Notes under the pieces: model-generated
Databases searched by the model: none
Seen by the model: the letters and a program-made list of their open reading frames with translations, nothing else
What the model was told of the DNA's origin: nothing
Source of the DNA: Oscillospiraceae bacterium
Lineage (GTDB): Bacteria; Bacillota; Clostridia; Oscillospirales; Ruminococcaceae
Direction of reading: 5' to 3'
Assembly (NCBI GenBank): GCA_016288755.1
Contig: JAEELE010000023.1
Location: forward strand, 1 to 47,395
DNA length: 47,395 bases
Translations under genes and position numbers: made by a program
In this document: positions 8,120 through 32,514 of the stretch, in pieces
How positions within the stretch are numbered: the stretch's first letter is position 1
Layout of the letters: each line of letters begins with the position of its first letter

Positions 8120-9163
8120 TTGGAAAGCCCGACCCTTGCGATTATCAAGAACCCGCAGCAAGCCGACGACGCGCTGCTGCTCGATTTTCTGCGCGAAGCC
8201 CCGGACCCCGAACGCGACCGCGCACTATTTGAAGCCGCCGATCAGGTGCGCCGCGCGCATTACGGCGATGCGGTCTATCTGCGCGGTCTGATCGAATTCA
8301 CGAATTACTGCAAAAACAACTGCTATTACTGCGGCATCCGCGCGGCAAACGCCAACGCGAAGCGCTACCGCCTGACGCCGGAGCAGATCCTCGCCTGCGC
8401 CGACGAGGGCTATGCGCTCGGCTACCGCACCTTTGTGCTGCAGGGCGGCGAGGATCCCTATTTCACCGACGACCGCATCTGCGAAATCGTTTCGGCGCTG
8501 CATGAGGCGCACCCGGACTGCGCGGTCACGCTCTCGATCGGCGAAAAATCCCGCGCGAGCTATCAGGCTTATTTTGACGCCGGGGCAAGGCGCTATCTGC
8601 TGCGCCATGAGACCGCCGACCCGGCACATTACCGCATGCTGCACCCGGAGTCCATGTCGCTGGAAAACCGCAAGCGCTGTCTGTCTGATCTGCGCGAGAT
8701 CGGCTATCAGGTCGGGAGCGGCTTCATGATCGGCTCGCCGTATCAGACCCCGGCGCATCTGCTGTGCGACATCCGGTTTTTGCAGGAGCTGGACCCGCAC
8801 ATGATCGGCGTGGGACCGTATCTCAATCATCCGGAGACGCCGTTTGCGGGGATGCCGTCGGGCGAGCTGCATTTCGGGATACGGATCGTGGCGCTGCTGC
8901 GGCTGATGTTTCCGAAGGCGCTGATTCCGGCGACGACGGCATTCGGGACGCTGCATCCGCAGGGGCGGGAGCTTGCGCTGAAGGCGGGGGCGAATGTGAT
9001 CATGCCGAATCTGTCGCCGACGGCGGTTCGACCGCTCTATGAGATTTACGAGAACAAGATTTGCACGGGGGAGGAATCGGCGCAGTGCCGCGGCTGTCTG
9101 GAGCGCCGCATCGCGTCGGCGGGCTACCGCGCCGTCACTGCGGTCGGAGACTCGCTTGTTTGA
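8120..9163 (+). CDS. hydE: [FeFe]-hydrogenase maturation radical SAM enzyme HydE
   Basis: A 347-residue radical SAM protein. HydE acts with HydF and HydG to build the organic part of the H-cluster 2Fe subsite of [FeFe]-hydrogenase, as expected for a fermentative H2-producing anaerobe. The start is a TTG at 8120, supported by ACGGAGGTAA 9 nt upstream, with no better ATG. The SAM-cluster motif CKNNCYYC provides Cys64, Cys68 and Cys71. The HydE-type segments YLRGLIEFTNYCKNNCYYCGIR, TFVLQGGEDPYF and SIGEKS follow, and the C-terminal half carries GPYLNHPETPFA and TAFGTLHPQGRE. HydF, HydG and the hydrogenase are not in this window. The related biotin synthase and PylB are less likely given these segments. 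Confidence 0.92.
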   Translation: MESPTLAIIKNPQQADDALLLDFLREAPDPERDRALFEAADQVRRAHYGDAVYLRGLIEFTNYCKNNCYYCGIRAANANAKRYRLTPEQILACADEGYALGYRTFVLQGGEDPYFTDDRICEIVSALHEAHPDCAVTLSIGEKSRASYQAYFDAGARRYLLRHETADPAHYRMLHPESMSLENRKRCLSDLREIGYQVGSGFMIGSPYQTPAHLLCDIRFLQELDPHMIGVGPYLNHPETPFAGMPSGELHFGIRIVALLRLMFPKALIPATTAFGTLHPQGRELALKAGANVIMPNLSPTAVRPLYEIYENKICTGEESAQCRGCLERRIASAGYRAVTAVGDSLV

Positions 9164-10042
9164 ATGAGAAGTGAGAAGTGAGAAGTTGTTCCGTCGCCTT
9201 TACTTCTGCTGCCGATTGTGAAGGGAGGAGGTAGCAGGTAGGAGGGAGAAAGTGAATGCGGAATGATTGCGGGGTTTTTTCGTTTCCTGTTCTGAATCGT
9301 TGTTCCTGCTGTGAATTTGGCTGGGCGGCGGGGGATTTTTGTTCCCTGTTCTTTACCGTTCGTCCGGCTGTGAATTCAGCTGGGCGCGGGGCGCGGTTCT
9401 GAGGGGAAACCACAAGAGGAAGGGGGAGTCGGCTGCAATGCAGCCGGTCTCCCCCTCCCTCTTAAGGTTTCCCCCGCTGCACGCAGTGCAGCTGAGACTC
9501 TCCTTTCCTTATCTTCCACCCCCTCTGTTCCGTAACCTTTTGTTTCTTGGTAGCCCGGTTCAATGATAACCTTCACTCCCTGCGTGCGTGCTAGCCGCAC
9601 GCAGGGGAGGTTGTGCTGTAACCGTCGGTATAAGTGCGCCGGGGCAGTGAAACGGAACACCTGAGAGAACAAAAACCCCCCCCTGCAGGCGGTTAGCCTG
9701 CCCGAGGGGAGTGAGGGTTACGGATTAACAGATCACCAATAAACGAAAGATTACGGAACAGAGGGGAAGGGAGATAAGGAAGGGGAGCTTAAGCTGCACT
9801 GCGTGCAGCCGGCTCCCCCTCCCTCTTGTGGTTCCCCCTCGCATTCGCGCCCCGCGCCCAGTGAAATTCACAGTTGGAGCAACGATTCAGAACAGGGAAC
9901 AAAATCCCCCGCAATCATTCCGCATTCTCCTCTGCCCCGCGAAATCCACGGCAGAAGCAACGATGACGGAACAACTCCTCACTCCTCACTGCTCACTCCT
10001 CACTATCCCTCAGCAGCAGAAGTGACGGAACCATTTCTCATT
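9164..10042. repeat. Long mosaic inverted repeat, copy A2
   Basis: The whole 0.88 kb between hydE and rluB is a second full-length copy. It starts at the hydE stop with GAGAAGTGAGAAGTGAGAAG and TTGTTCCGTCGCC, and ends with GGAACAACTCCTCACTCC at the rluB end. It therefore has matching inverted outer ends. The palindrome centre is near 9608-9690, and its reverse complement aligns with A1. Hairpins inside the arms, such as CGGCTGCAATGCAGCCG near 9430-9446 and CTGCACGCAGTGCAG near 9477-9492, are self-complementary although their sequence differs from the equivalent hairpins of A1. No gene is present. Confidence 0.85.
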
Positions 10043-20967: not shown

Positions 20968-21006
20968 GGAACCGCCCCGGACACTGTACCGGGGCGGTTC
21001 CTTTTG
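20968..21006 (+). terminator. Terminator of the lipoprotein gene
   Basis: A perfect 13-bp stem, GGAACCGCCCCGG, 8-nt loop, CCGGGGCGGTTCC, followed by TTTT. Confidence 0.9.
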
Positions 21007-21082
21007 TGAGAAAATCAGAAAATGTTGCGCATTTTTGATAGATTGCACAAAAATCGAGCGCAAGATTCTACCAAAACGCGGA

Positions 21083-21111
21083 TTGAAACCGCGCGAAAAA
21101 TGCAGTATAAT
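21083..21111 (+). promoter_or_regulatory. Promoter of the AraC-family regulator
   Basis: TTGAAA (21083-21088), 17 bp, TATAAT (21106-21111), 67 nt before the chosen ATG. Confidence 0.75.
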
Positions 21112-21177
21112 AGAGAAAAGAAGGCAGTTCACGGAAACGCCCCGTCTTCGCGGCGGGGAGAAGGAGAGAGGGTACCG

Positions 21178-22047
21178 ATGGCACAGAAGGACGACACCGT
21201 GCAGAGCGTTCCGAATCCGCTCGACACGCGCATCATCAAGACGCCGAGCGCCGTTGCACGCAGGGCATTTTTCTATCTGCAGGAGTGCGGACACCTGAAG
21301 GCGAGCGGCGAGCACCGCACCAGCCGCCAGAATCTGCAGTCATTCCTGTTCGCGGTCGTGCTCGACGGCAAGGGCGAGCTGACCTATGAGGGCAGGACGC
21401 AGGAGCTTTCGGCGGGCGACTGCTTTTTCATCGACTGCCGCACCGCCCATTCCTACCACAGCGACGCGAAAAAACCGTGGGAGCTGATCTGGGTGCACTT
21501 CAACGGCAGCACCGCCGAGGAATACTATAAGCTGTTTCAGGGGCAGCTCCCGCCGGTGTTCCATCCGGCGGCGACCTCGAAATTCGTGTCACTGCTGCAG
21601 GAAATCATGCGCACGAACACCGAGACCTACGCCGACACTGAGGTGCTGACCTCCGGGATGCTCGCCAATCTGCTGACCATGCTGCTGACCGTCAACAGCA
21701 TTTCCGAGGAGGCGGATTCCGCCCTGCAGGCAAAGCTCAAGACCGTGCTCGCCTATATCGACGCCAACTTCACGAGCGATATCCGTCTGGACGAGCTGGC
21801 GCGGCGGTTCTATATCAGCAAGTATTACCTCACGCGCGAATTCAAGCGCGCCTACGGCGAGACGATCTTCCAGTACATCATCAGCAAGCGCATCAATTAT
21901 GCCAAGCGCCTGCTGCGCTTCACGGACAAGCCCGTCGAGGAGATCTCGGAGCTCTGCGGCTTCAACGACCAGAGCTATTTCTCCAAGCAGTTCAAGAAGG
22001 CGGAGAACGTCACCTGTCTCGCCTTCCGCCGCCGCTGGCGCGACTGA
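21178..22047 (+). CDS. AraC-family transcriptional regulator with cupin sensor
   Basis: The ATG at 21178 is chosen because AGGAGAGAGG lies just upstream and the longer frame to 21022 runs through the promoter. The 289-residue product has an N-terminal AraC-type cupin (FAVVLDGKGELTYEGRTQELSAGDCFFIDCRTAHSYHS) and a C-terminal double HTH (LDELARRFYISKYYLTREFKRAYGETIFQYIISKRINYAKRLLRFTDKPVEEISELCGFNDQSYFSKQFKKAENVTCLAFRRRW). Regulators of this layout usually activate sugar uptake or hydrolase genes on binding a carbohydrate. The nearest candidate target is the sugar ABC importer at 24.3-27.9 kb, whose upstream region carries phased repeats. Its stop codon is followed within 8 nt by a fragment of dpaA. 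Confidence 0.9.
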   Translation: MAQKDDTVQSVPNPLDTRIIKTPSAVARRAFFYLQECGHLKASGEHRTSRQNLQSFLFAVVLDGKGELTYEGRTQELSAGDCFFIDCRTAHSYHSDAKKPWELIWVHFNGSTAEEYYKLFQGQLPPVFHPAATSKFVSLLQEIMRTNTETYADTEVLTSGMLANLLTMLLTVNSISEEADSALQAKLKTVLAYIDANFTSDIRLDELARRFYISKYYLTREFKRAYGETIFQYIISKRINYAKRLLRFTDKPVEEISELCGFNDQSYFSKQFKKAENVTCLAFRRRWRD

Positions 22048-22054
22048 CGCGGTT

Positions 22055-22252
22055 TCCCCATGCAGCCTTCGGCGGAGCGAGGGCTGCGGCTGCCGCGCGG
22101 TGCATGTTTCCGCGCTGGACGGCGTTTTGCCGGGATTCCCGCTGGTGTTCAACACCGTGCCGGCTCCGGTGCTGGGCGGCGACCGGCTCGCAAGGCTGCC
22201 GGATCACGCCGTTGTCATTGAATTGGCTTCGGCGCCGGGCGGGGATGACAGC
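22055..22252 (+). pseudogene. dpaA: Middle fragment of dipicolinate synthase subunit A gene (dpaA/spoVFA)
   Basis: Frame 2 from about 22055 encodes SPCSLRRSEGCGCRAVHVSA, then LDGVLPGFPLVFNTVPAPVL and GGDRLARLPDHAVVIELASA, then PGGDDSG. This matches the DpaA signature order: a GCRA strand, the VFNTVPA(P/L)VL loop, and (I/V)(D/E)LAS-PGG-D. There is no start codon or ribosome binding site, and the AraC gene ends 8 nt before it, so the N-terminal two thirds are missing. After PGGDDSG the frame runs into mosaic repeat DNA. The next residues of DpaA (GVDAEAA...LGVRVI) are found 6.6 kb away at 28870. DpaA with DpaB makes the spore-core chelator dipicolinic acid. Confidence 0.75.
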
Positions 22253-22265
22253 GGAGACAATCCGC

Positions 22266-22520
22266 ACCGGGGCGGAATGCGGAATTAGAAATGAGAAGTG
22301 AGAAATGAGAAATGGTTCCGCCGCTTTCGTTTTTGCTGCTGATTGAAAGCGATTCTGGGAGCCGTGACCCATAAGAAGGTGCGCCAGCGCCGTGTGCTGC
22401 ACAAGGTTGGGAGGCTCCGCGTATATGTACCCGGAGGAAATCGCCCGCGGTGGCTCCCCGCCGCTGGGGCTCCCCGCCCCGCAGCCATTATTCGTTATTC
22501 TTTTTTTCTTTTAGCGAAGC
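22266..22520. repeat. Mosaic repeat copy A4 with module B
   Basis: This begins at the dpaA break with GGCGGAATGCGGAATTAG, AAATGAGAAGTGAGAAATGA, GGTTCCGCCGCTTTCG, TGCTGCTGATTGAAAG, then a diverged module B (AAGAAGGTGCGCCAGCGCCG, GTTGGGAGGCTCCGCG, CCCGGAGGAAATCGCCCGCG) and GCCATTATTCGTTATTC near 22489. No gene is seen in 22253-22567. Confidence 0.75.
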
Positions 22521-22567
22521 GCTGTATTGCGCTGCTCCTTCAAAAATGAACCGAAAGACGTGAGACG

Positions 22568-23377
22568 ATGGAAAAGCCGGACGTGAAAAAGTTCATATTT
22601 GCGCTGATCGCGGCTGCCGGCGTGCTCGCGGCGGGCGGTGCGGGTCTTTTTGTGCTCGCGAACGGGAACCCGCGCGCACAGATGACCTTCCGCGTGAACT
22701 CACAGAACGGTTTCGATTCCGATTTTGAAGCGGCGGCAAGCCCGGCTGACCGTATGCCGGAGACCTCTGCTGCCGTCAGCGAACCCGAGCCTGATATCAC
22801 CGAGACGACAACGACGCCGAACCGCGACCTCAATACCGCCACAGAAGCGGAATTGCAGCGCACGGACGGCGTCGGAGCTGTTTTGGCGGGGCGGATCGTG
22901 CAGTACCGCACGCAGATCGGCGGATTTCGGCGGCGCGCAGAGCTCTGCAATGTGCCGGGCATCGGAGAGACGCTCGCCGCCCGCATCATGGAGGAATTCG
23001 ACATTCCCGATGAGCTGCCGCCCGAGACGGCGGTCACGGCGACGGCAACGACGACGGCTGCGACAACGACAACGACGCCCGCGACAAAGCCGGTCACGAC
23101 CGTGACGACAACCGTGACCGAAGCCGAAACGACCGTCACGGAGACGCACCCGTTCTACGCGATCAACGAGGTCACGCTCGCGGAGCTGCTGACCGTTCCC
23201 GGGATGGACGAGGAACACGCGCAGTCGATTCTGGAGCTGCGTGAGAAGATCGGCGGCTACGGCAGCGTCTACGAGACCTATTATCTGGATTTCACCGCGG
23301 AGTATGTCAAGTACACGCTCTGCGAATACCTCTATGTCGAGGGCGACCCGAACGTCAGTGTGAAGCCGGAAGGATAG
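22568..23377 (+). CDS. ComEA-like protein with two helix-hairpin-helix regions
   Basis: A 269-residue protein with an N-terminal membrane anchor (FIFALIAAAGVLAAGGAGLFVLA, 9-31) and a disordered outer segment. The first HhH pair (about 86-146) is DLNTATEAELQRTDGVGAVLAGRIVQYR and LCNVPGIGETLAARIMEEF. A Thr-rich spacer (155-193) leads to a second HhH-like region (197-235) with NEVTLAELLTVPGMDEEHAQSILELREKIGGYGSV. ComEA binds double-stranded DNA on the cell surface during natural transformation. The second HhH region and long Thr spacer are unusual for ComEA, and no comEC or comEB neighbour is visible. It could be a general DNA-binding surface protein. Only a weak Shine-Dalgarno is seen. Confidence 0.7.
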   Translation: MEKPDVKKFIFALIAAAGVLAAGGAGLFVLANGNPRAQMTFRVNSQNGFDSDFEAAASPADRMPETSAAVSEPEPDITETTTTPNRDLNTATEAELQRTDGVGAVLAGRIVQYRTQIGGFRRRAELCNVPGIGETLAARIMEEFDIPDELPPETAVTATATTTAATTTTTPATKPVTTVTTTVTEAETTVTETHPFYAINEVTLAELLTVPGMDEEHAQSILELREKIGGYGSVYETYYLDFTAEYVKYTLCEYLYVEGDPNVSVKPEG

Positions 23378-23383
23378 CGGCGG

Positions 23384-23710
23384 TCACTTCGGCATGCGCG
23401 ACTGTGCCGCGGGATAGAAATCCTCGCCGGCGATCTGCCCGAACTGCCACGCATGGGAGCGGCTCTTGCGCACCGCACAGCCGCCGACCGGCAGGTCGCA
23501 GACCAGATGCAGCGTCGGGTCGATGTCGCAGAGCTCCGAGACGCTCAGCACGACCGCGTCCTCCTCGGTGTGGTCGCAGCCGCAGACGAACTCCCAAGAG
23601 TTGTCATTGAAATGGTGGCAGACCGTCGTGATGTCGTGACTGCCCTCGAGCGCGTGGATGCAGGTGAGCACGAGCAGCTCAGGGCGCTCGCTGAACGGAT
23701 AATGTGCCAT
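23384..23710 (-). CDS. Small uncharacterised protein
   Basis: A 108-residue protein that is probably cytoplasmic. GGAGG lies 8 nt before the ATG, and a promoter (TTGCAT, 17 bp, TATTAT) is present at 23748-23776, so it should be expressed. Visible features are WEFVCGCDHTEEDAVVLSVSELCDIDPTLHLVCDLPVGGCAVR, with six Cys and several His that might hold a metal, and a C-terminal SHAWQFGQIAGEDFYP. I do not recognise the family with confidence. It runs opposite to its neighbours and its stop is 6 nt from the stop of the HhH gene. Confidence 0.7.
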   Translation of the reverse strand: MAHYPFSERPELLVLTCIHALEGSHDITTVCHHFNDNSWEFVCGCDHTEEDAVVLSVSELCDIDPTLHLVCDLPVGGCAVRKSRSHAWQFGQIAGEDFYPAAQSRMPK

Positions 23711-23747
23711 AGCGGTAACCTCCGGATGAATGATGCTGTACTATATA

Positions 23748-23776
23748 ATAATACACGATTTTATTCAGAAATGCAA
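23748..23776 (-). promoter_or_regulatory. Promoter of the small 23.4 kb gene
   Basis: Minus strand: TTGCAT (23771-23776), 17 bp, TATTAT (23748-23753). Confidence 0.65.
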
Positions 23777-23885
23777 GCGGTCATATTTCATGTGCAAAAT
23801 GACGGATTTCGATTTGACTGTTTGCGCGGCGCAGGAGCCCGCTTCACAGGCTGAAAACAGCCGTATGGACCCCGCCGATGCCATT

Positions 23886-23962
23886 TTGTAAGAAATCGCC
23901 CTGAAATTGTAACCGATTTGTAACAAATCGCAAAAAATAGCGTAATAACGGTTTCAAATCGC
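23886..23962 (+). promoter_or_regulatory. Phased repeat cluster upstream of the sugar importer promoter
   Basis: TTGTAA occurs at 23886, 23907 and 23918 (21 and 11 nt apart). AAATCGC occurs at 23893, 23925 and 23956 (32 and 31 nt apart). The spacing is close to whole turns of DNA. The region lies 85-160 bp upstream of the -35 box at 24047, a usual place for an activator such as the nearby AraC protein. The gap 23777-24046 holds no gene. Confidence 0.45.
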
Positions 23963-24046
23963 AAATTATGGGCTAATTTAGAGGAATAAATGTTGAATGA
24001 TTTGGGCAAGACGCACAAATATAGTGACGAAACGGTATTTTGCATT

Positions 24047-24075
24047 GACTTTTCGGGGGTTTTCGTGTATATTTA
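24047..24075 (+). promoter_or_regulatory. Promoter of the sugar ABC importer operon
   Basis: TTGACT (24047-24052), 17 bp, TATATT (24070-24075). Transcription should begin near 24082, giving a leader of about 225 nt. Confidence 0.75.
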
Positions 24076-24081
24076 CATTAT

Positions 24082-24300
24082 GAAAACAGGGCGACGAAAA
24101 GCAGCCCGAAGGAAGCCTGACACCCGAAGGCGGCGGCTCTGAGACCTGTTGACAGACGAAGCCCGGTGCCCGCAGCGGCACAGAAGGCTCCGATGCTGCG
24201 CAAACCGCAGCGAAATGACCAGCCCAACCCTGAGAGGGGAGGCAAACTTATTTCACAGCTGTGATGTGCAGCAATAACTCACAGCAAAATTAAGGAGGAA
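24082..24300 (+). ncRNA. Structured 5' leader of the sugar-binding protein mRNA
   Basis: The 5' leader can form several stable hairpins in a row: GGGC...GCCC (24091-24109), a two-part stem AGCC/GGCT enclosing GTGCC-CGCAGC-GGCAC (about 24162-24191), CTGCG-CAAAC-CGCAG (about 24199-24213), and CCCT-GAGA-GGGG (about 24230-24241). The palindrome CACAGCTGTG follows at about 24256-24265. It ends in AAGGAGG before the start codon of the binding protein. It does not match the cobalamin, FMN, SAM, glycine, lysine or c-di-GMP riboswitch consensus sequences that I know. It may control translation or stabilise the mRNA. Confidence 0.45.
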
Positions 24301-24307
24301 ACTTACA

Positions 24308-25846
24308 ATGAACAAGCTGAGAAAGTCCCTCGCACTCATCGCTACTCTGGCGATGGCATCCACCGCTCTGTTCGCTTGCGGCGACGGCTCTTCCACTGCT
24401 CCGGCAGCAAGCAAGGCTGACAGCAAGGCAGCTGAGGAAAGCAAGGCTGCTGATGACAGCAAGGCTGCTGAGGAAAGCAAGGCAGAGGAAGGCCCGAAGG
24501 TCGAGTTCCCGGATGAGGCAGGCAGCAAGCTGTCCGTTCTGTCCTGGACCGGTGACGACCTCAACGCAATGATCAAGAACTTCGCTGAGAACACCAGCTA
24601 CAACGCAGACGACATCGTCTGGGTTCAGCAGGGTTCCAAGGGTCAGGAAGCCCGCGAGAAGTACGCAACCTACTTCGCAGGCGGCGATGATGCTGACCTT
24701 CTGTTCCTCGAGGCAGACTGGATCCTCGACTACATCAACAACGACGAGTACACCGCTCCGCTGACCAAGCTCGGCTTCACCACCGATGACTTCAAGGGCT
24801 GCTATGAGTACACCGTCGCAATCGGCACCGACAACAACGGCGTTCTGAAGGGCGCAACCTGGCAGGCAACTCCGGGCGCATACCTCTACAGAACCGATCT
24901 TGCTGAGCAGTATCTCGGCGCAAAGACCCAGAGCGAGATGCAGGATAAGGTCAAGGATTGGGACACCTTCATCGCATCTGCAGAGACCGTTAAGACCGCT
25001 TCCAACGGCAAGTGCGCAATGATCGATACTCTGGCTGGTCTGTGGCAGGTCTATCAGTACAACCGCTCCAGCGCTTGGGCTGACAAGGACGACAAGCTCC
25101 AGATCGATGACTACTGCAAGACCTACGCAGAGCTCGCAAAGAAGTGCTGGGACGAGAAACTTGTGACCAAGGAAGATGCATGGTCTGACGGCTGGTATGC
25201 AATCGGTCAGGACGGCTCCACCATGGGTTACTTCTTCTGCACCTGGTGCCTCGGCGAGAACTCCATGCTCTCCAACGCTGAAGGCGGCATCAAGATGAAG
25301 GATAAGGTCGACGCAGACGGCAACGTCGTGAAGGATGCTGACGGCAAAGCAGTCCAGGAGATCGACTACGATGCAGACGGCAAGGTCCAGCCGAAGAACC
25401 CCGATATCTTCGGTAAGTACGACATCTGCAACGGCCCGTCCGGCTGGGCATGGGGCGGCACCTGGTTCGCAGTCTCCCCGAAGTGCAACAACGGCACGCT
25501 GGCTCATGACTTCGTGAAGTACTTCACTGTCACCGAGGACACCATGGAGAAGTACGCTCTGGCAAAGTCTGAGTTCGTCAACAGCCCGAAGGTCATGAAG
25601 AAGATCGTCGACGACAAGTCCAACAAGAACCCGCTGCTCGTCTCCGGCGACCAGTTCGCGATCCTCTACGATGCAGCCGGCAAGATCGACATGACCGGCA
25701 AGATCACCGCATTCGATTCCCAGATCAAGGATAAGTTCAACGGCGTCGTCACCAAGTACGTCAAGGGCGAGATCAAGGACTACGATGCAATGATCGAGCA
25801 GTTCAAGAAGGACTGCGGCTCCATCGAGGGTCTGGTTGTCGAGTAA
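24308..25846 (+). CDS. Carbohydrate ABC importer, substrate-binding lipoprotein
   Basis: A 512-residue family 1-type extracellular solute-binding protein. The signal peptide MNKLRKSLALIATLAMASTA ends in LFAC (Cys24). A tether of repeated SKAAEE/SKAADD units (about 36-60) follows, then the ligand-binding domain (LSVLSWTGDDLNAMIKNFAENTSYNADDIVWVQQG onward), with aromatic residues typical of sugar sites (GPSGWAWGGTWFAVSPK). AAGGAGG lies 8 nt before the ATG. Codon choice is strongly biased to a few codons (GCA, GAC, AAG, ACC), which with the structured leader and the hairpin at 25922 suggests very high expression. It works with the two permeases downstream. The substrate is not readable, but an oligosaccharide is likely. 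Confidence 0.9.
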   Translation: MNKLRKSLALIATLAMASTALFACGDGSSTAPAASKADSKAAEESKAADDSKAAEESKAEEGPKVEFPDEAGSKLSVLSWTGDDLNAMIKNFAENTSYNADDIVWVQQGSKGQEAREKYATYFAGGDDADLLFLEADWILDYINNDEYTAPLTKLGFTTDDFKGCYEYTVAIGTDNNGVLKGATWQATPGAYLYRTDLAEQYLGAKTQSEMQDKVKDWDTFIASAETVKTASNGKCAMIDTLAGLWQVYQYNRSSAWADKDDKLQIDDYCKTYAELAKKCWDEKLVTKEDAWSDGWYAIGQDGSTMGYFFCTWCLGENSMLSNAEGGIKMKDKVDADGNVVKDADGKAVQEIDYDADGKVQPKNPDIFGKYDICNGPSGWAWGGTWFAVSPKCNNGTLAHDFVKYFTVTEDTMEKYALAKSEFVNSPKVMKKIVDDKSNKNPLLVSGDQFAILYDAAGKIDMTGKITAFDSQIKDKFNGVVTKYVKGEIKDYDAMIEQFKKDCGSIEGLVVE

Positions 25847-25921
25847 TTGACACCCGATTCCCGGGATTCAGGCAGCATCAGACAACAGATCAAATGCCTG
25901 AAATAGCATAACCGAATATGT

Positions 25922-25962
25922 GCCTATTGGGGGGAGACCCCCAATAGGCGTATATTTTATCT
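25922..25962 (+). terminator. Hairpin between binding protein and permeases (attenuating terminator or mRNA stabiliser)
   Basis: GCCTATTGGGGG-GAGA-CCCCCAATAGGC is a perfect 12-bp stem with a GNRA-like loop, followed by GTATATTTTAT. In ABC importer operons such an element lets the binding protein be made in excess over the permeases. Confidence 0.8.
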
Positions 25963-26006
25963 ATCCCGGTCAATTTCACTAATTTTTCTTTGAAAGGGTG
26001 TGCTGA

Positions 26007-27059
26007 ATGGCTACAGCTGCACAAAGACGGATCAAATCCGTCAGCTATGCGAAATACGGCTACATCTTTACCGCGCCGTTCTTTATCGTATACTTCATTT
26101 TCATGCTGTTCCCGCTGCTTACGACCTTTAAGCTGTCTGTTTACGGCAACGGTCTGAGCGCCAAGCTGGATCAAGCAGGTACCTCGATCAACTGCTTTGT
26201 CGGTATGGACAACTTCAAGACGATCCTTACCGGCGGTACCGACTACAAGTCCATGGGTATCCATGAGAACTTCGTCAAATTCTTCGGCAATACGATCATC
26301 ATCTGGGTCGGCAACTTCATCCCCCAGATCTGCCTTTCCCTGCTGCTTGCCGTCTGGTTCACCGACCTGCGCGTCAAGATGCCGGGCAAGGGCTTCTTCA
26401 AGGTCGTCATGTATATGCCGAATATCATCACGGCAGCTTCCGTTGCCGGTCTGTTCCTGTCTCTCTGCGGTGACTCCAAGTACAGTGTGTTGAACTCATT
26501 CCTATTAAATCACGGATTCTTGGATGAGGCGTATATGTTCGCCTCAAATAAATGGTCATCGCGCATCATCGTTATGTTCATTCAGGTGTGGATGTGGTTC
26601 GGCAACACCATGATCATGCTGATGTCCGGTATTCAGGGCATCAACGAGTCGCTCTTCGAGGCGGCTGAGATCGACGGTGCGAACTCCCGCCAGACCTTCT
26701 GGCGCATCACCTTCCCGCTCCTGAAGTCCATCATGGTCTACACGCTGCTCACCTCTATGATCGGCGGTCTGCAGATGTTCGATATCCCGTTCATGTTCCA
26801 CACGGGCAATGTCATCAACTCGCACCTCGAGACCATCGCAATCTTTATCTACGATTACTTCCACAGAGACTATCTGCATCCGTCCTACGGCTATTCCGCT
26901 GCGGCGTCTGTCATACTCTTTGTGATCACATCGATCCTCGGCGCGCTCGTGTTCTATGTCCAGCGTGACAAGGATGCGATCGAAATTAAGAAGAAGCGCA
27001 AGGCTGCTGCCAAGGAAGCCAAGCGCCGTGCTGCGAGAGGAGGCGGATTCAGCATATGA
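26007..27059 (+). CDS. Carbohydrate ABC importer permease, MalF/UgpA type
   Basis: A 350-residue integral membrane protein with about six transmembrane segments, the first being IFTAPFFIVYFIFMLFPLLTTFKL. The EAA loop that contacts the ATPase is ESLFEAAEIDGANSRQTFWRITFPLL. The C-terminus is basic (KDAIEIKKKRKAAAKEAKRRAARGGG). Start ATG 26007 follows GAAAGGGTG. It overlaps the second permease by 4 nt and would form the heterodimeric channel with it. It lies downstream of the attenuating hairpin and is expected at lower level than the binding protein. Confidence 0.92.
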   Translation: MATAAQRRIKSVSYAKYGYIFTAPFFIVYFIFMLFPLLTTFKLSVYGNGLSAKLDQAGTSINCFVGMDNFKTILTGGTDYKSMGIHENFVKFFGNTIIIWVGNFIPQICLSLLLAVWFTDLRVKMPGKGFFKVVMYMPNIITAASVAGLFLSLCGDSKYSVLNSFLLNHGFLDEAYMFASNKWSSRIIVMFIQVWMWFGNTMIMLMSGIQGINESLFEAAEIDGANSRQTFWRITFPLLKSIMVYTLLTSMIGGLQMFDIPFMFHTGNVINSHLETIAIFIYDYFHRDYLHPSYGYSAAASVILFVITSILGALVFYVQRDKDAIEIKKKRKAAAKEAKRRAARGGGFSI

Positions 27060-27952
27060 GCAAGAAGATCACATACGCAAGTGACAAGGGCGGCTACCAG
27101 ACCAAAGTCATCATCAAGTCTGCGTTCATCTACCTCGGTCTGATCATCCTCACCCTCATTTGTCTGGTTCCGATCTGGATCCTCGTTGTCAACTCCACGC
27201 GCGACCACAATGAGATCATCGTCAACGGTATGTCGCTTATCCCGAACAAATTCCTGTTCCACAATATCAAAACGCTGGGTTCGAACTCGCTGTACACCAA
27301 GTTCTTCCACCCGCTCATCGGTATGCGCAACTCGCTGATCATCGCAGGCTGCTGCTGCGCGCTGACCGTCTTCTTCGCCGGTCTGACCGCATACGGCATC
27401 GTGGTCTACGACTTCAAGCTCAAGGGCGCCATGTTCACGTTCATCATCGCAGTTATGATGATTCCGACGCAGGTCACTGCTGTTGGTTTCATGAAAATGC
27501 TCGTCAACTGGGATCTGCTCAACAGCTATATCCCGCTGATCGTGCCTGCAATCGCTGCACCTGCGATCGTGTTCTTCATGCGCCAATACATGCTGTCCTC
27601 CTTCCCGCTGGACATCATTGAGGCTGCCCGTATCGACGGCTCCAACGAGTTCCGCACCTTCCTGACCATTTCCATCCCGATGATGAAGCCGGCGTTTGCT
27701 GTGCAGGCGATCTTCGCATTCATCGCGAAGTGGAACGACTACTACAACCAGTCCCTCGTGCTCATCAAGGGCGACTATCGTCAGAATACGATGCCGATGA
27801 TGGTGCAGGGCGTTCTGGCAATCGACCGCAACCCGGATTACGGCGCAAACTACGCCGCGATCATGCTGTCGATCATCCCGGTCGTCGTGGTCTATCTCGT
27901 GCTCTCCAAGTTCATCATCGGCGGCGTCGCTGCCGGCGGTGTCAAGGAGTAA
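27056..27952 (+). CDS. Carbohydrate ABC importer permease, MalG/UgpE type
   Basis: A 298-residue membrane protein with about six transmembrane segments (first AFIYLGLIILTLICLVPIWILVV). The EAA loop is LDIIEAARIDGSNEFRTFLTISIPMMKP. The start overlaps the previous stop (ATGA), so the two permeases are coupled. No ATP-binding subunit follows and none is present in the window. The importer probably borrows a shared MsmX/MsmK-type ATPase encoded elsewhere, as is common in Firmicutes. A terminator follows directly. Confidence 0.92.
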   Translation: MSKKITYASDKGGYQTKVIIKSAFIYLGLIILTLICLVPIWILVVNSTRDHNEIIVNGMSLIPNKFLFHNIKTLGSNSLYTKFFHPLIGMRNSLIIAGCCCALTVFFAGLTAYGIVVYDFKLKGAMFTFIIAVMMIPTQVTAVGFMKMLVNWDLLNSYIPLIVPAIAAPAIVFFMRQYMLSSFPLDIIEAARIDGSNEFRTFLTISIPMMKPAFAVQAIFAFIAKWNDYYNQSLVLIKGDYRQNTMPMMVQGVLAIDRNPDYGANYAAIMLSIIPVVVVYLVLSKFIIGGVAAGGVKE

Positions 27953-27972
27953 CCGCACCGACATTCAGCACA

Positions 27973-28009
27973 AAAGCACAGCGTCATTCGGGCGCTGTGC
28001 TTTATTTTT
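27973..28009 (+). terminator. Terminator of the sugar importer operon
   Basis: AAAGCACAGCG, 9-nt loop, CGCTGTGCTTT, then ATTTTT. The tail touches the ribosome binding site of the next gene, so that gene depends on read-through or an unseen promoter. Confidence 0.88.
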
Positions 28010-28018
28010 GGAGGGCTT

Positions 28019-28804
28019 ATGTCTGATTTTTACAGTGCGATGCAGGCTGCGGCGCGCGACATGGGCTGCCGCGGCATCGGCACCATGGGCGAAAAATCGC
28101 TGCACCTGACGCTGAAATACTACTACGCGCCCGACCCGGAGACCCATGAGCTGCCGGTCGGCGGGTTCATTGCCGACGCTGTGACCGAACAGGGCGTCGT
28201 CGAGATTCAGACACGCGGACTTGCGCGCTTAAAGCCCAAGCTCGACGCCTTTCTGCCGTGTTGCCCGGTGACGGTCGTGCACCCGGTGATCGCGGAGAAA
28301 ACGGTCATCCGCGTCGATGAGAACGGCGAGCTGCTCTCGAGGCGCAGATCGCCCAAGCATGAGACGGTTTTCTCGAGGATGCGCGAAATCTACACGCTGC
28401 GCGACTATATAGCGCGGGAGAATTTCCGGCTCTGCCTGCCGCTGCTCGCACTGAACGAATACTCCGTGCCGGTGCACAGGGGCAGATTCAAAAAGCTGGA
28501 CCGCGAGCCGACCGAGCTGCGCGGGGAGGTCGTGCTCGGCAGCGCTGCTGATTTTGCTGCGCTGCTCCCGCCGAATTGCCCCGAACAGTTCACGGCAGCC
28601 GAGCTCGCCGACCTGCTGCACGCCGTCCCGAACGACGTGCGGATGCTCCTCAACCTGCTCGCGCGCATGGACCTTTGTGCAAGCACCCACCGCACAAGAA
28701 CCGGTCAGCTCTGGACGCTCCAAAGCGGGATTCCAAAGGGCCAGCCCCCAAGAATGCGATCGCAAAAACCGAATTCTCATCAAAATGGGAGTCCAGAGGG
28801 ATAG
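28019..28804 (+). CDS. Uncharacterised protein with a nuclease-like D...ExQ motif, chimeric C-terminus
   Basis: A 261-residue ORF. The N-terminal part has EKSLHLTLKYYYAPDPETHELPVGGFIADAVTEQGVVEIQTRGLARLKPKLDAFL, followed by VTVVHPVIAEKTVIRVDENGELLSRRRSPKHETVF. This layout recurs in conserved Clostridia proteins of unknown function. The D...GVVEIQT segment followed by a basic helix resembles the PD-(D/E)xK nuclease core, but this is only a pattern match. From about residue 235 (SGIPKGQPP...NGSPEG) the protein reads into repeat-like DNA, so the original C-terminus may be lost. The ribosome binding site GGAGGG is close to the ATG (3 nt), and no promoter follows the preceding terminator. Confidence 0.6.
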   Translation: MSDFYSAMQAAARDMGCRGIGTMGEKSLHLTLKYYYAPDPETHELPVGGFIADAVTEQGVVEIQTRGLARLKPKLDAFLPCCPVTVVHPVIAEKTVIRVDENGELLSRRRSPKHETVFSRMREIYTLRDYIARENFRLCLPLLALNEYSVPVHRGRFKKLDREPTELRGEVVLGSAADFAALLPPNCPEQFTAAELADLLHAVPNDVRMLLNLLARMDLCASTHRTRTGQLWTLQSGIPKGQPPRMRSQKPNSHQNGSPEG

Positions 28805-28841
28805 TATCCCTCTGGCAGGGGTTTGGGGACGGAGTCCCCAA
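28793..28841. repeat. Double palindrome (REP-like) at the right dpaA breakpoint
   Basis: Two adjacent perfect palindromes: CCAGAGGGATA-G-TATCCCTCTGG (28793-28815) and TTGGGGAC-GGA-GTCCCCAA (28823-28841), joined by CAGGGGT. They lie between the unknown gene and the dpaA C-terminal fragment. Similar gggac-gtccc elements are common extragenic repeats in Ruminococcaceae, to my recollection. Confidence 0.7.
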
Positions 28842-28869
28842 TATCAATCCTTCCTCTGTATCTCCGGCG

Positions 28870-29040
28870 TCATCCGGCGTTGATGCCGAAGCCGCGGAAA
28901 CGCTGGGCGTGCGGGTCATTCCTGCGCCGGGGCTGCCCGGAAAATATGCGCCGGTCACTGCCGGGAAAATCGTCGCGCAGACTGTCCGGGAGCTCCTGAC
29001 GGAAAGGAAGCTCCTGACGGAGAGGAGGCGCGGCACATGA
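28870..29040 (+). pseudogene. dpaA: C-terminal fragment of dipicolinate synthase subunit A gene (dpaA/spoVFA)
   Basis: The frame encodes SSGVDAEAAETLGVRVIPAP then GLPGKYAPVTAGKIVAQTVR, the conserved end of DpaA (GVD..AA..LG...I.A.GLPGK.AP.TAG.I...T). It finishes with ELLTERKLLTERRRGT, and its TGA overlaps the ATG of dpaB, the standard dpaA-dpaB junction. Upstream the frame is open only through repeat DNA and the end of the preceding gene, with no start codon or ribosome binding site that would make DpaA. The matching middle part lies at 22055-22252. Confidence 0.82.
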
Positions 29041-29627
29041 TTGATCTGACCGGGATCCGGCTCGGCTTTGCGCTGACCGGCTCCTTCTGCAATGCGCAGC
29101 GCGCGCTCGACGCTGCACAGGCTTGTGTGCAGGCGGGCTGCGAGCTGCTGCCGATCGTGTCGGAGCATTTCGCCTCGGTGCGGACGCGCTTCGGCGCCCC
29201 GGAGAGCTTTCTCGAGCCGCTCGCGGCACTCGGCGGCGGTCGGCTGATCCGCAGCATTGCCGAGGCGGAGCCCATCGGACCGAAGGATATGACCGACGTC
29301 CTCGCGGTCTGCCCGTGCACCGGCAATCTGCTCGGCAAGCTCGCCAACGGCATCACCGACGGCACCGTGCCGATGGCGGTCAAATCCCATCTGCGCGGCG
29401 GCAAGCCCGTCGTGCTCTGCATCGCGACGAATGACGGGCTTTCGGCGTCGGCGCGCAATCTCGGCGATCTGCTCAATCGCCGGCATTATTATTTTGTGCC
29501 CTTCGGACAGGACGCCCCCGCATCGAAGCCGACCTCGCTGGTCGCGGATTTCTCGCTGCTGCCCGGGACGGTCGCGGCGGCGCTCAGCGGGCAGCAGCTC
29601 CAGCCGCTTCTGCTGCGGCAGGTGTGA
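29037..29627 (+). CDS. dpaB: Dipicolinate synthase subunit B (flavoprotein)
   Basis: A 196-residue flavoprotein of the Dfp/SpoVFB family. Landmarks are IRLGFALTGSFCNAQRALDAAQACVQAGCELLPIVSEH, DVLAVCPCTGNLLGKLANGITDGTVPMAVKSHLRGGKPVVLCIATNDGLSASARNLGDLLNRRHYYFVPFGQDAP and KPTSLVADFSLLP. With DpaA it converts a lysine-pathway intermediate to dipicolinate in the mother cell. The gene is full length and its start overlaps the dpaA remnant. Since dpaA is broken, the activity and expression of dpaB are uncertain. In some clostridia dipicolinate is made without DpaA/B by an EtfA-type enzyme. Confidence 0.92.
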   Translation: MIDLTGIRLGFALTGSFCNAQRALDAAQACVQAGCELLPIVSEHFASVRTRFGAPESFLEPLAALGGGRLIRSIAEAEPIGPKDMTDVLAVCPCTGNLLGKLANGITDGTVPMAVKSHLRGGKPVVLCIATNDGLSASARNLGDLLNRRHYYFVPFGQDAPASKPTSLVADFSLLPGTVAAALSGQQLQPLLLRQV

Positions 29628-29692
29628 GGAAATGCACGCTCTTGTCCGAATTATAAGGTGAAGCCGCAATTCTTATATTTTCATGAAAATCC

Positions 29693-29721
29693 TTGTCAAT
29701 CCGACCGGAATATGCTATAAT
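29693..29721 (+). promoter_or_regulatory. Promoter of the YfhO gene
   Basis: TTGTCA (29693-29698), 17 bp, extended -10 TGC TATAAT (29716-29721). Confidence 0.75.
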
Positions 29722-29775
29722 AAGAGCGCGGCAAACCCCGTGTTTCCGCGCTTTTTCTTTGATTGGAGTGATGGC

Positions 29776-32514
29776 ATGAGACGCAGAATCCTCCGGCAGA
29801 CCGCGCCTGCCCTGTCAGCTGCGGTGATCACCGGGCTGCTGTTTGTGATCTGTTTTGCGATATACGGCATTTTCCCGCTCGGCGACAAGTCGATCGTCTG
29901 GTGCGATATGGAGCAGCAGGCTGTCCCGCTGCTGCTGCACTTCAAGGCGCTCGTGCAGCAGGGCGAGAGCATCGCCTATTCCGCGCTCGATGCGGGCGGC
30001 ATGCAGTTTTACGGCGTCTATTTCTTCTTTCTGAGCAATCCGCTCTCGCTGCTCGTGCTCGTCAGCGATATCCCCGCGGACATGCTTGTCAATCTGCTTG
30101 TGGTCATCAAGCTCGCGCTCGCCTCGGGCACGGCGGCACTCTGGCTCTGCCGGCGCGTGCCGGAGCTGCATCCGGTGCCGCAGGTGCTGCTCGCCGTGAT
30201 GTACGGCTGCTCGGGCTACGGGCTCTTCTATTATCAGAATCTGATGTGGCTCGACATCATGGTGATGCTGCCGGTCCTGATGATCACGCTCGATATTCTG
30301 CTGCGGCAGGCGGACGCGCGCCCGTATCTCCTCGCGCTCAGCATCATGATGCTGCTCTGCTTCTACCTCTGCTACATGATCGTGCTGTTTTTGCTGATCT
30401 ATACGGCGCTGTCGGTGCACTATCTGGTTGAGAAGGAGCGGCGCGGGAAAATCGCACTGCAGCTCTTCGGGGGGAGCATTGCCGCTGCCTTTCTGACGGC
30501 TGCGGTCTGGCTGCCGTGCTTTTTGCAGGTGATGGACTCCGCGCGCAGCGGGAGCATCATCGACAGCCTGATGAACAGCTATCTGGTCAATCACCTCGAT
30601 GACAAGCTTGCGCTGCTGGGCTGCACGGCGATCTGCTTTGCGGTGCTGCCGCATCTGTGGAAGCCGATCCGGACGCAGGAGCCTGTCACCCTGCGCGACC
30701 GCGCGCTCTGCCTGCTGCTGACGCTCCCCGTGCTGTTCGACCCGATCAACGCGATGTGGCACACGGGCAGCTATCAGGCATTTCCGCTGCGCTGGGGCAT
30801 GATCCCGATCCTGCTGCTGCTGACACTTGCGGCAAGGCTGCTCGCCGACCGCAGTGCCAAGCCGCTGCCGCTGCCTGCCGCGGCGCGATACGCGATTCCG
30901 GCTGCGGTGCTGCTGCTCTTTGGCGGCGCGGTCGCTGTGCTGATTTGGAAGGGCGGCGACCCGATCCTCGGCTATGTCCGCACGCTCTGGGTCGATGAGG
31001 TCGGCTTCTTCCTGCTGCTGATCCCGATTCTGCTCGCGGCGCTCTGCTATTGGCTCGGGCTGCGGCTCTACCGTGCGAAGCAGATCGGGATGCCGGTCTG
31101 TGCGGCGCTGCTGTCGCTGCTGTTCCTCGGGGAATTCACGCTGAGCTTCTACTGCTACATGGGCAGTGCCGCCGACACGGACAAGCTCTTTGCGCAGACG
31201 GTCTCGGCGGCGGACCGCATTGAGGATGACGCCTTCTACCGCGTGCGCATGGCGAAAAAATACGCGCACGCAAACATGGTCGGCGCGCTCGGCTACCCGA
31301 CGCTGTCGCACTATACCTCCATGACGCGCGAGGACCTGATGTTCGGCGTCAAGCGCGCGGGCTACAGCTCCTACTGGATGGAGATCACGGGCACGGGCGG
31401 CACGGTGCTGACCGACGCGATCTGGAATATCCGCTATCTGCTCGGGCAGCGCGCGGATTTCCCCTCGTGGACAGAGCAGGTCTGGTCGGACAATACGCTC
31501 TCGATTGCAAAAAGCAGCATGACGATGCCCGGCGCGCTCATGCTCGACGCAGACCCCGCCGACATCGCGTCGCTCCCTTCGGGCAGCCGCGCGGCCGTGC
31601 AGGCATATCTCGCACACCAGACGCTCGGGCTTGATGATCTCGTGCAGGAATACGCGGTCACGGAGACGAGCAATGTGCTGCTGACGTTCGGCGACGGGCA
31701 GACCGTTTCGTGGGAGAATGCGGACGGCACGCAGCACTTGGAGGAATTTGCCGGACCGGCATTCTGCGATATGCTGACGCCCGATACCGAGGGCGAGATT
31801 CGCTTTGCGTTCTTCGTCAAGGGGCGGCAGGCGCTCTATTTCGACCTCTATTCACAGACCGGCACCAACCTCGGCAACCCGCGCAATCAGGCAGTGGCAG
31901 TCGCGCGCGACGGCAGGACCTGTGCGGCGAGCTATCCGGAGAATTCCAACAACGGGCTCATTTTCCTCGGCGAAGCAGAGAATTCCTATGTCTCCGTGCG
32001 GCTGACGGTCAAGCACGGCTTTGACTGCGAGAGCTTCGGCGTGTTCGGGCTCGACCTCGACCGGCTGGAGCAGGCGATGCCGCAGGCGCAGGGCGCAGAG
32101 CTCGCATACAGCCGCGGCGTCTACACCGTGCAGGTGCAAAGCGAAGCGCCGCGCACGCTGATGCTCGCGGTGCCCTATCACGAAGCCTTCACCGCGACGG
32201 TCAACGGCGAGGCGGCACAGGTCCTTTGCGTCAACGGGTGCCAGACCGCCGTGCAGATTCCGGCGGGGGAGAGCGAGGTGCAGCTGCGCTTCCATGTGTC
32301 CGGGCTGCGTGCCGCGCTGATTCTGAGCGCCGCCGGACTGCTCTGCTGCCTGCTCGTGCTGCTGCTGCGCCGGCGCATTCCCGCGCGGGTCCGGGCTGCG
32401 GCAGAACGGCTCTCGGCGGCTGTGCTGACACTGATCCTCCGCGGCATTCTGCTGCTGGTCTATGTGCTGCCGGTCGTGCTCTGTATCGTCGGAGGCATCC
32501 GCAGCATATTGTGA
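29776..32514 (+). CDS. YfhO-family membrane protein (GT-C fold glycosyltransferase candidate)
   Basis: The ATG at 29776 is preceded by TGGAGTG; the longer frame to 29683 covers the promoter. The 912-residue protein has about a dozen transmembrane segments in its first 480 residues, a large outer domain, and a final anchor pair (LRAALILSAAGLLCCLLVLLLRRR and LILRGILLLVYVLPVVLCIV). The early loop VWCDMEQQAVPLLLHFKALVQQGESIAYSALDAGGMQFYG has the acidic pattern of GT-C catalytic loops. YfhO of Bacillus subtilis takes part in glycosylating lipoteichoic acid using lipid-linked sugar. The outer domain contains YSSYWMEITGTGGTVLTDAIWNIRYLLG, a typical YfhO stretch. A cell-envelope glycosylation role is inferred. 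Confidence 0.85.
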   Translation: MRRRILRQTAPALSAAVITGLLFVICFAIYGIFPLGDKSIVWCDMEQQAVPLLLHFKALVQQGESIAYSALDAGGMQFYGVYFFFLSNPLSLLVLVSDIPADMLVNLLVVIKLALASGTAALWLCRRVPELHPVPQVLLAVMYGCSGYGLFYYQNLMWLDIMVMLPVLMITLDILLRQADARPYLLALSIMMLLCFYLCYMIVLFLLIYTALSVHYLVEKERRGKIALQLFGGSIAAAFLTAAVWLPCFLQVMDSARSGSIIDSLMNSYLVNHLDDKLALLGCTAICFAVLPHLWKPIRTQEPVTLRDRALCLLLTLPVLFDPINAMWHTGSYQAFPLRWGMIPILLLLTLAARLLADRSAKPLPLPAAARYAIPAAVLLLFGGAVAVLIWKGGDPILGYVRTLWVDEVGFFLLLIPILLAALCYWLGLRLYRAKQIGMPVCAALLSLLFLGEFTLSFYCYMGSAADTDKLFAQTVSAADRIEDDAFYRVRMAKKYAHANMVGALGYPTLSHYTSMTREDLMFGVKRAGYSSYWMEITGTGGTVLTDAIWNIRYLLGQRADFPSWTEQVWSDNTLSIAKSSMTMPGALMLDADPADIASLPSGSRAAVQAYLAHQTLGLDDLVQEYAVTETSNVLLTFGDGQTVSWENADGTQHLEEFAGPAFCDMLTPDTEGEIRFAFFVKGRQALYFDLYSQTGTNLGNPRNQAVAVARDGRTCAASYPENSNNGLIFLGEAENSYVSVRLTVKHGFDCESFGVFGLDLDRLEQAMPQAQGAELAYSRGVYTVQVQSEAPRTLMLAVPYHEAFTATVNGEAAQVLCVNGCQTAVQIPAGESEVQLRFHVSGLRAALILSAAGLLCCLLVLLLRRRIPARVRAAAERLSAAVLTLILRGILLLVYVLPVVLCIVGGIRSIL

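Follow-up and report, generated by a model that had tools for sequence, protein, structure and literature searches.

A dpaA Gene Carried in Three DNA-Level Exons in a Genus of Ruminococcaceae, and Candidate Serine Recombinases for Their Joining

Introduction

The dpaA gene is needed for dipicolinic acid (DPA), the protective acid of the spore, and a locus in which it appears only as separated fragments raises the question of whether the gene has been lost or is put together from its pieces. Such a locus lies in contig JAEELE010000023.1 (assembly GCA_016288755.1) of an Oscillospiraceae bacterium (Bacillota; Clostridia; Oscillospirales; Ruminococcaceae), a stretch of 47,395 nucleotides that was analysed in full and is called the window here. 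A first-pass annotation, made from the letters alone, had noted two dpaA fragments 6.6 kb apart with a sugar importer between them, and had left two readings: that sporulation had lost DpaA, or that pieces of the gene had been moved, perhaps by an intervening element of the kind excised during sporulation. In this computational analysis we find dpaA to be carried as three exons, and consider it highly probable that these are joined, as a programmed event in the mother cell, by recombinases encoded elsewhere in the genome. The comparison covers 30 genomes of the window's genus, whose members are uncultured bacteria, some from the sheep rumen, and 31 genomes outside it. Genomes are denoted by G, contigs by C and individual loci by L; the window is contig C41 of genome G000.

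The dpaA Gene in the Window and Its Genome

Profile searches of the window recover two DpaA pieces, both on the forward strand, as the first-pass annotation had read them: exon 2, in which TIGR02853 is matched at 22064-22252 (E 3.2e-10), and exon 3, in which it is matched at 28870-29004 (E 5.6e-10). The end of exon 3 overlaps the start of dpaB by the letters ATGA, and dpaB is intact (PRK08305, 235 bits against a cut-off of 156), again in line with that annotation. The N-terminal two thirds of DpaA had been taken to be absent, which is wrong for the genome as a whole: the search for the N-terminus that had been proposed finds a third piece, exon 1, on contig C81, where TIGR02853 52-190 is matched at 9050-9463 (E 1.7e-25). 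The frame of this piece starts at an ATG at position 8936 and reaches its crossover dinucleotide GG at 9459-9460, exon 1 thus being G000:C81:8936-9460. Since exon 1 is found on C81, no part of dpaA is missing from the genome, and the gene consists of three DNA-level exons; a profile search of G000 found no full-length dpaA, whether as a first or as a second copy.

Two cuts separate the exons, site 1 joining exon 1 to exon 2 and site 2 joining exon 2 to exon 3. The few codons in which exons 2 and 3 had been seen to overlap (GGCGGGGATGAC versus GGCGTTGATGCC) are the crossover region of site 2. When the pieces are joined at GG, a single open frame results in each of the 19 genomes in which all four junctions are present, and site 2 then reads PGGVD, which we take, from the first-pass annotation and general knowledge, to be the form in intact relatives. 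The joined protein of G000 matches PRK08306 over positions 7-292 of 297 (235 bits) and TIGR02853 over 52-287 of 287, with 200 bits against 90, 40 and 40 for the separate pieces. These scores of the joined protein lie under the curated cut-offs of both families, and that of TIGR02853 is passed by no surveyed genome, in or outside the genus.

Conservation of the Split Across the Genus

Pieces of dpaA, cut at the same two positions, occur in 27 of the 30 congeners, and the sister genomes, to which the first-pass annotation had pointed for comparison, show the split again and again. Exon 1 stands separate in 22 of the 30, exon 2 in 23 and exon 3 in 24; three genomes (G005, G007, G022) have exons 1 and 2 fused into one; a profile search found no dpaA piece in G016, G018 and G027; and full-length dpaA occurs in none. 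A second copy of exon 2 in G029, on the 5820-base contig C62 (L065), is a duplicate assembly, its first 5000 bases being identical to part of contig C25. The pieces flanking the DNA between exons 2 and 3 (segment 2) share one contig in 19 genomes, at 5.9-7.2 kb from the start of the upstream match to the end of exon 3. Outside the genus, 18 of the 31 genomes have a single-frame match over most of the DpaA family, among them four of the seven in the same family. Chance, decay or an assembly join do not explain the split, which is real and conserved, and almost certainly functional.

The exons are under purifying selection. In 11 pairs of exon 1 sequences the ratio of nonsynonymous to synonymous differences (pN/pS) lies at 0.05-0.41; 12 pairs each for exons 2 and 3 give 0.12-0.66 and 0-0.28, respectively, so that all 35 comparisons stay below 1, with a maximum of 0.66. 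SpoIVA is found in 26 of the 30 congeners; there is no match in G026 or in the three genomes that lack dpaA, and these three, which have neither SpoIVA nor strong matches to the recombinase classes C and E described below, have apparently lost sporulation. The selection on the exons, the joined frames open in every case and the co-presence with SpoIVA contradict the suggestion that sporulation in the genus has lost DpaA.

Anatomy of the Two Sites

On the insert side of the cuts, non-coding DNA is conserved for about 24 bp at site 1 and for 16-20 bp at site 2, and then falls to background. Mean pairwise identity of the site 1 arms at 17-24 bp from GG is 0.77 after exon 1 (n = 22) and 0.91 before exon 2 (n = 23), against 0.26 and 0.29 in the next bin and 0.24-0.35 further out overall; at site 2 the two arms (26 and 24 genomes) have identities of 0.77 and 0.71 in the first 8 bp and of 0.31 and 0.40 at 17-24 bp, with lower values beyond. 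The two insert-side arms of each site are mutual inverted repeats centred exactly on GG, where their complementarity is 0.74 (site 2) and 0.64 (site 1), against 0.17-0.37 in 16 neighbouring half-base registers. Both partners carry GG in 23/23 genomes with both site 2 halves and in 22/22 with both site 1 halves. Where arms have diverged they have changed jointly, as in G013 (TGTCCTCGA / TCGAGGACA) and G007 (GCTCCGAC / GTCGGAGC). Arms pair better within a genome than between genomes, with 13.48 against 10.97 of 20 positions at site 2 and 14.55 against 12.99 of 21 at site 1, values that none of 20000 between-genome shuffles reached at either site, the shuffle ignoring relatedness. The exon-side arms of site 2 (GGCTTCAAAG / CTTTGAAGCC) have a symmetry of 0.57.

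At site 2, a crossover at the first Gly codon was considered and rejected, as its arms are asymmetric and it gives PGVD; the register at the second Gly codon has symmetric arms and restores PGGVD. Large serine recombinases act on attachment (att) sites that have an identical two-base crossover centre and inverted arms on the insert side. Judged from their letters, both dpaA sites have this anatomy, because inverted arms are centred on a shared GG and joining at GG restores the frame.

Repeat DNA, which had been reported at both edges of the intervening DNA, is seen by eye as repeat-like stretches at 22283-22450 and 28780-28850 of the window. Similar stretches stand beside exon 1 in G000 and exon 2 in G029; the arms are conserved and the repeat-like stretches are not.

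The DNA Between and Around the Exons

Removal of segment 2 would leave exon 2 joined to exon 3. The segment carries a similar set of genes across the genus, namely a ComEA-like helix-hairpin-helix (HhH) protein, a small reverse-strand gene, parts of a sugar ATP-binding cassette (ABC) importer and a conserved gene of about 240-260 amino acids, each shown by the open reading frame (ORF) filter in 7-18 of the 19 segments. The first-pass annotation had seen no recombinase here, correctly for the window: a six-frame comparison with five serine recombinase queries, which included the L136 sister of class E and not class E itself, gave no match in the window or in any of 60 fragment loci, in which 19 segments are complete. 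Its idea of moved pieces and of an excisable intervening element was right in kind, and the layout is another, with three exons, two sites, ordinary conserved cargo and recombinases elsewhere.

Before exon 2 stands a gene that we take, from the first-pass annotation and general knowledge, to encode an AraC-family regulator. Its ortholog directly precedes exon 2 in G003, G004, G008, G021, G025, G026 and G029; it also precedes the fused gene in G007, lies elsewhere in the fused genomes G005 and G022, where no reciprocal joint was seen beside it, and in the dpaA-less G018 has the HhH gene next after it. Exon 1 is without a stable neighbourhood. In six-frame comparisons of up to 3 kb after it (312 bp in G024), 15 of 22 genomes resemble no other at the translated level, and none resembles more than two; before it, the largest sharing group is a clade of five (G003, G004, G021, G025, G026). 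Exons 1 and 2 lie on different contigs wherever both are found apart, at a distance, in any orientation and judged by the lengths of the contigs, of at least 260 kb in G003 and at least 133 kb in G011.

Candidate Recombinases

Large serine recombinases are many in the genus, at least as many as those among the matches listed, and genus-wide presence was checked for two classes, C and E. One protein of each class has the Resolvase, Recombinase and zinc ribbon domains in order (PF00239, PF07508, PF13408), and PDB relatives are TP901-1 integrase, TnpX and YokA. The catalytic serine motif YxRxS and the arginine motif [DSR]R-hydrophobic-[SAG]R are intact in 24/24 class C and 21/21 class E proteins. 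It is very likely that serine recombinases join the dpaA pieces.

Class C, of about 480-500 amino acids (G000 copy at C15:678-2099), has strong orthologs (E < 1e-140) in 24 genomes, namely all 23 in which site 1 is split, together with G012, which is not counted among the genomes of known site 1 state. It is found in none of the three fused and none of the three dpaA-less genomes, G027 having only a homolog of 29% identity. Where the state of site 1 is known (split, or else fused or absent), the occurrence of class C matches it in 29/29 genomes and that of class E in 27/29. In the 22 genomes with exon 1, exon 2 and class C, the enzyme is on neither exon contig. By inspection, the class C tree has the same clades as the dpaA-dpaB tree; a rooted version of the latter (22 congeners, 4 outgroups) requires at least two changes for the fused state and rejects a single fused clade (p 0.004), the fused group having been named after an earlier tree had been seen. 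Loss of class C wherever the gene is fused is as expected of a dedicated enzyme, the two events being too few for a formal test. Class C likely serves site 1. Relatives 35-38% identical to class C occur at G006:C45:42231, G011:C28:13607, G013:C15:1018 and G014:C60:7948.

Class E, of about 380-460 amino acids (G000 copy at C4:313-1464), was found in 21 genomes, and in 16 of the 21 loci rlmB is its neighbour. What connects it with site 2 is a finding in another genus: the metagenome-assembled genome RUG11193 (L136) has a 4.0-kb element that interrupts dpaA at this very site and encodes a serine recombinase, the sister of class E with a local support of 99 in a FastTree tree of 109 rows, long branches included. 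It is plausible that class E serves site 2. As in the window's genus, the insert-side arms of the L136 element are inverted; unlike there, the element carries its recombinase and two further genes, which we take to be patatin-like and DegV-like, and its arms are different. The split locus (L136:4205-9134) is possibly an ancestral form.

Classes A and B were rejected as enzymes of the sites, as they are nearly identical between species that are far more different in class C, and for the same reason look mobile; they are probably recently spread mobile elements (e.g. L145:2995-4695, L152:3413-5602). Class D was rejected as it is present in G027, which has no dpaA.

Proposed Joining and Its Alternatives

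In growing cells, exon 1 would lie at a separate chromosomal place, exon 2 between araC and the HhH gene, and exon 3, together with dpaB, 6.6 kb beyond it. Sporulation would then bring two site-specific recombination events, at paired sites of about 40-50 bp with GG as crossover dinucleotide, the one linking exon 1 with exon 2 and the other exon 2 with exon 3, to yield a full-length DpaA frame directly upstream of dpaB. The enzymes would be large serine recombinases encoded elsewhere, class C at site 1 and probably class E at site 2. Segment 2 would be deleted because its two sites are in direct orientation, and the joint at site 1 could form by deletion or by inversion. Loss or inversion of the DNA between would cost nothing because the mother cell dies, and the forespore would keep the split form. 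We infer the timing from the precedent of skin (PMC5025042) and from the synthesis of DPA, which is reported to take place late and in the mother cell (PMC5629000).

Several observations weigh against this scheme or parts of it. None of the loci retrieved shows dpaA in joined form, a single scan of viral contigs gave no match to a circle junction, and the titled assemblies are metagenome bins, several of them incomplete. The exon-side arms of site 1 have a symmetry of 0.32 and no peak, and those of site 2 have a second, lower peak (0.48) 3 bp away. No directionality factor was identified. Of the upstream regions of class C, 23 of 24 were scanned and showed no sporulation promoter pattern beyond chance; before class E, with 13 of 21 scanned, a sigma-K pattern is only weakly in excess (2 against 0.15 expected). 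Class E is missing from six genomes that bear dpaA (G005, G007, G012, G013, G014, G022); two of them, G013 and G014, have a split site 1, and G013 has a split site 2 as well; rlmB is also missing from G005, G007, G012 and G022, so the class E locus may simply be unassembled in these. Partial distance correlations between arms and recombinases (18 genomes) do not support a pairing of C with site 1 and E with site 2: with class C held constant, distances between site 1 arms continue to track class E (r 0.23, p 0.012), and the classes are not separated at site 2.

This last result, and the absence of class E from all three fused genomes, would suit a scheme in which class E or some other enzyme serves site 1 in place of class C, or one enzyme serves both sites. 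We regard this as unlikely, since class C fits the site 1 state in every genome of known state and class E fails in two (G013 and G014, which lack it), and since it is the site 2 element of L136 that carries the class E sister. Rather improbable, in our judgement, is the possibility that both sites hold classical skin-type elements in broken assemblies, with class C inside a very large element 1. Known elements do carry their own recombinase (PMC10747680, PMC5025042, PMC5595907), and one cyanobacterial interruption element is nearly 1 Mb long (PMC4874684), as far as the available portions of these papers go; however, segment 2 is sequenced through in 19 genomes with no recombinase in it, class C is off both exon contigs in all 22 genomes that allow the comparison, and the DNA past the exon 1 arm differs between most species.

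Other readings do without DNA joining altogether. If dpaA were broken and decaying, the spores using another route to DPA or none, the want of an intact copy in all 30 congeners would follow, but pN/pS below 1 throughout, joined frames open in 19/19 genomes, non-coding arms that are conserved and co-vary, and the lack of SpoIVA in the dpaA-less genomes make such decay hardly credible. Exons that lie at unrelated places and are nevertheless in frame might also be transcribed apart and trans-spliced through split introns. Conservation, however, ends about 24 bp from each cut, which is too short for split group I or II introns; no Rfam match was obtained at E up to 1 over window positions 21000-30000; and the arms are inverted repeats around a dinucleotide, with a serine recombinase that co-occurs with the site 1 split, so that joining at the RNA level is very improbable. 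Three peptides made separately and assembling unjoined would be in keeping with the open frame kept by each exon, but an in-frame stop without an intervening ATG, GTG or TTG precedes exon 3 in 8 of 24 genomes and exon 2 in 14 of 23 (the remaining genomes have such codons, or no stop was met), and the arms would be left unexplained; a split protein is thus extremely improbable.

Relation to Known Systems and Significance

Like the split dpaA, skin (sigK), SPbeta (spsM), gin (gerE) and yin (yabG) combine, in what the consulted portions of the literature describe, a serine recombinase, paired att sites and a split sporulation gene, the comparison with SPbeta drawing partly on general knowledge. 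Unlike it, they are one element per gene with its own recombinase (PMC5025042, PMC10747680, PMC5595907; SPbeta PMC4191935, in the same portions). In dpaA the cut is precise, att-like sequences are paired and joining restores the frame, as in skin; segment 2 holds no recombinase and class C lies off both exon contigs, which is not as in skin. Sporulation genes cut by such elements include sigK, spsM, spoVFB, spoVR, gerE and yabG, and those described in detail in the accessible text carry their own recombinase; among them, vfbin in spoVFB (dpaB) of Bacillus weihenstephanensis is reported to be excised in sporulation (PMC10747680, PMC6957869, PMC5025042). According to the same text, vfbin interrupts the other subunit of the enzyme to which DpaA belongs and is like the dpaA split in this, but it is one element in the B subunit gene, whereas here the A subunit gene is in three pieces with unlinked recombinases.

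For cyanobacterial heterocyst genes, the part of a survey available to us gives 10 of 87 interrupted genes as cut by several elements, up to four in one, with serine or tyrosine recombinases and one element near 1 Mb (PMC4874684). Neither multiple cuts nor great length is therefore a novelty by itself. Seven cases of opposite orientation were taken there as mis-assemblies (PMC4874684). Those elements were found, on the same account, through xis genes near the cut, while the recombinase genes here lie elsewhere and the cargo consists of stable ordinary genes; the survey also counts 44 xis-like genes for which no interrupted gene lies within 3 kb (PMC4874684), so that unlinked cases may exist unseen in cyanobacteria.

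The literature searches, which did not extend to preprints, turned up no description of a split dpaA. As far as these searches go, the new features are a spore gene in three exons, recombinases encoded away from the DNA that they would remove, a stable ordinary cargo, fixation across a genus, and arms that are kept while the surroundings of exon 1 change. We lean, with some reserve, towards the view that the genus owns a DNA-splicing system, in which domesticated serine recombinases, free of mobile elements, reassemble a spore gene from three pieces at two or more places, over distances that differ between species and reach the scale of the chromosome, hundreds of kilobases being deleted or inverted in a doomed cell, selection keeping the arms while the chromosome around exon 1 is freely reshuffled. 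If this is true, programmed assembly of a sporulation gene has passed from the control of mobile elements to host ownership and has become fixed across a genus. The locus would then offer a testable case of why a split persists, either as a lock on DpaA until the mother cell commits or through simple dependence on the recombinase, and about twenty natural pairs of att sites with co-varying arms could be used in learning the specificity of serine recombinases. In addition, gene finders and completeness tests would call such a split gene absent.

Features of the Window and Minor Observations

The features of the window are collected in Table 1.

Table 1. The dpaA pieces, their sites and neighbouring genes in the window
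Feature	Position	Strand	Basis
Presumed AraC-family regulator, adjoining exon 2	21022..22047	+	ORF; ortholog directly before exon 2 in 7 other split genomes checked
Site 1 insert-side arm before exon 2, GCGGTTTCC...	22049..22073	+	conserved to 24 bp from GG, 23 genomes; inverted repeat of arm after exon 1
Site 1 crossover dinucleotide GG	22074..22075	+	both partners GG in 22/22 genomes
dpaA exon 2	22076..22242	+	TIGR02853 186-248; pN/pS 0.12-0.66; ends with site 2 GG 22241-22242
Site 2 insert-side arm after exon 2, GGATGACAGCGGAGACA	22243..22259	+	conservation and inverted-repeat analysis
Intervening segment 2, 6633 bp	22243..28875	+	similar gene set across genus; no six-frame serine recombinase match
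HhH ComEA-like protein (cargo)	22568..23377	+	PF12836, TIGR00426
Small conserved gene, 108 amino acids (cargo)	23384..23710	-	no family match
Probable substrate-binding protein, sugar ABC importer (cargo)	24308..25846	+	by position; no family match
Sugar ABC permease, UgpA-like (cargo)	26007..27059	+	family match
Sugar ABC permease, UgpE/MalG-like (cargo)	27056..27952	+	family match
Conserved gene, 261 amino acids (cargo)	28019..28804	+	no family match
Site 2 insert-side arm before exon 3, TGTATCTCCGGCGTCATCC	28857..28875	+	conservation and inverted-repeat analysis
Site 2 crossover dinucleotide GG	28876..28877	+	both partners GG in 23/23 genomes
dpaA exon 3, C-terminus; stop overlaps dpaB start	28876..29040	+	TIGR02853 243-287; pN/pS 0-0.28
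dpaB, dipicolinate synthase subunit B, intact	29037..29627	+	PRK08305, 235 bits, over cut-off

A leader stretch upstream of the sugar operon (24080-24300) has no Rfam match and contains a short motif, RKPDT in one frame, that also occurs in the corresponding leaders of G007 and G008.

A search of the sigK family for a second split gene gave only weak matches in G005, G016, G018 and G019, and pieces at contig ends in G012 and G029; in G004 the gene looks truly split. There, a gene of the sigK/sigE family lies in two pieces on two contigs (G004:C15:16300-18356, L273; G004:C83:10733-11080, L274), and a serine recombinase-like ORF of 565 amino acids stands directly before the C-terminal piece, an arrangement that looks like a classical skin element.

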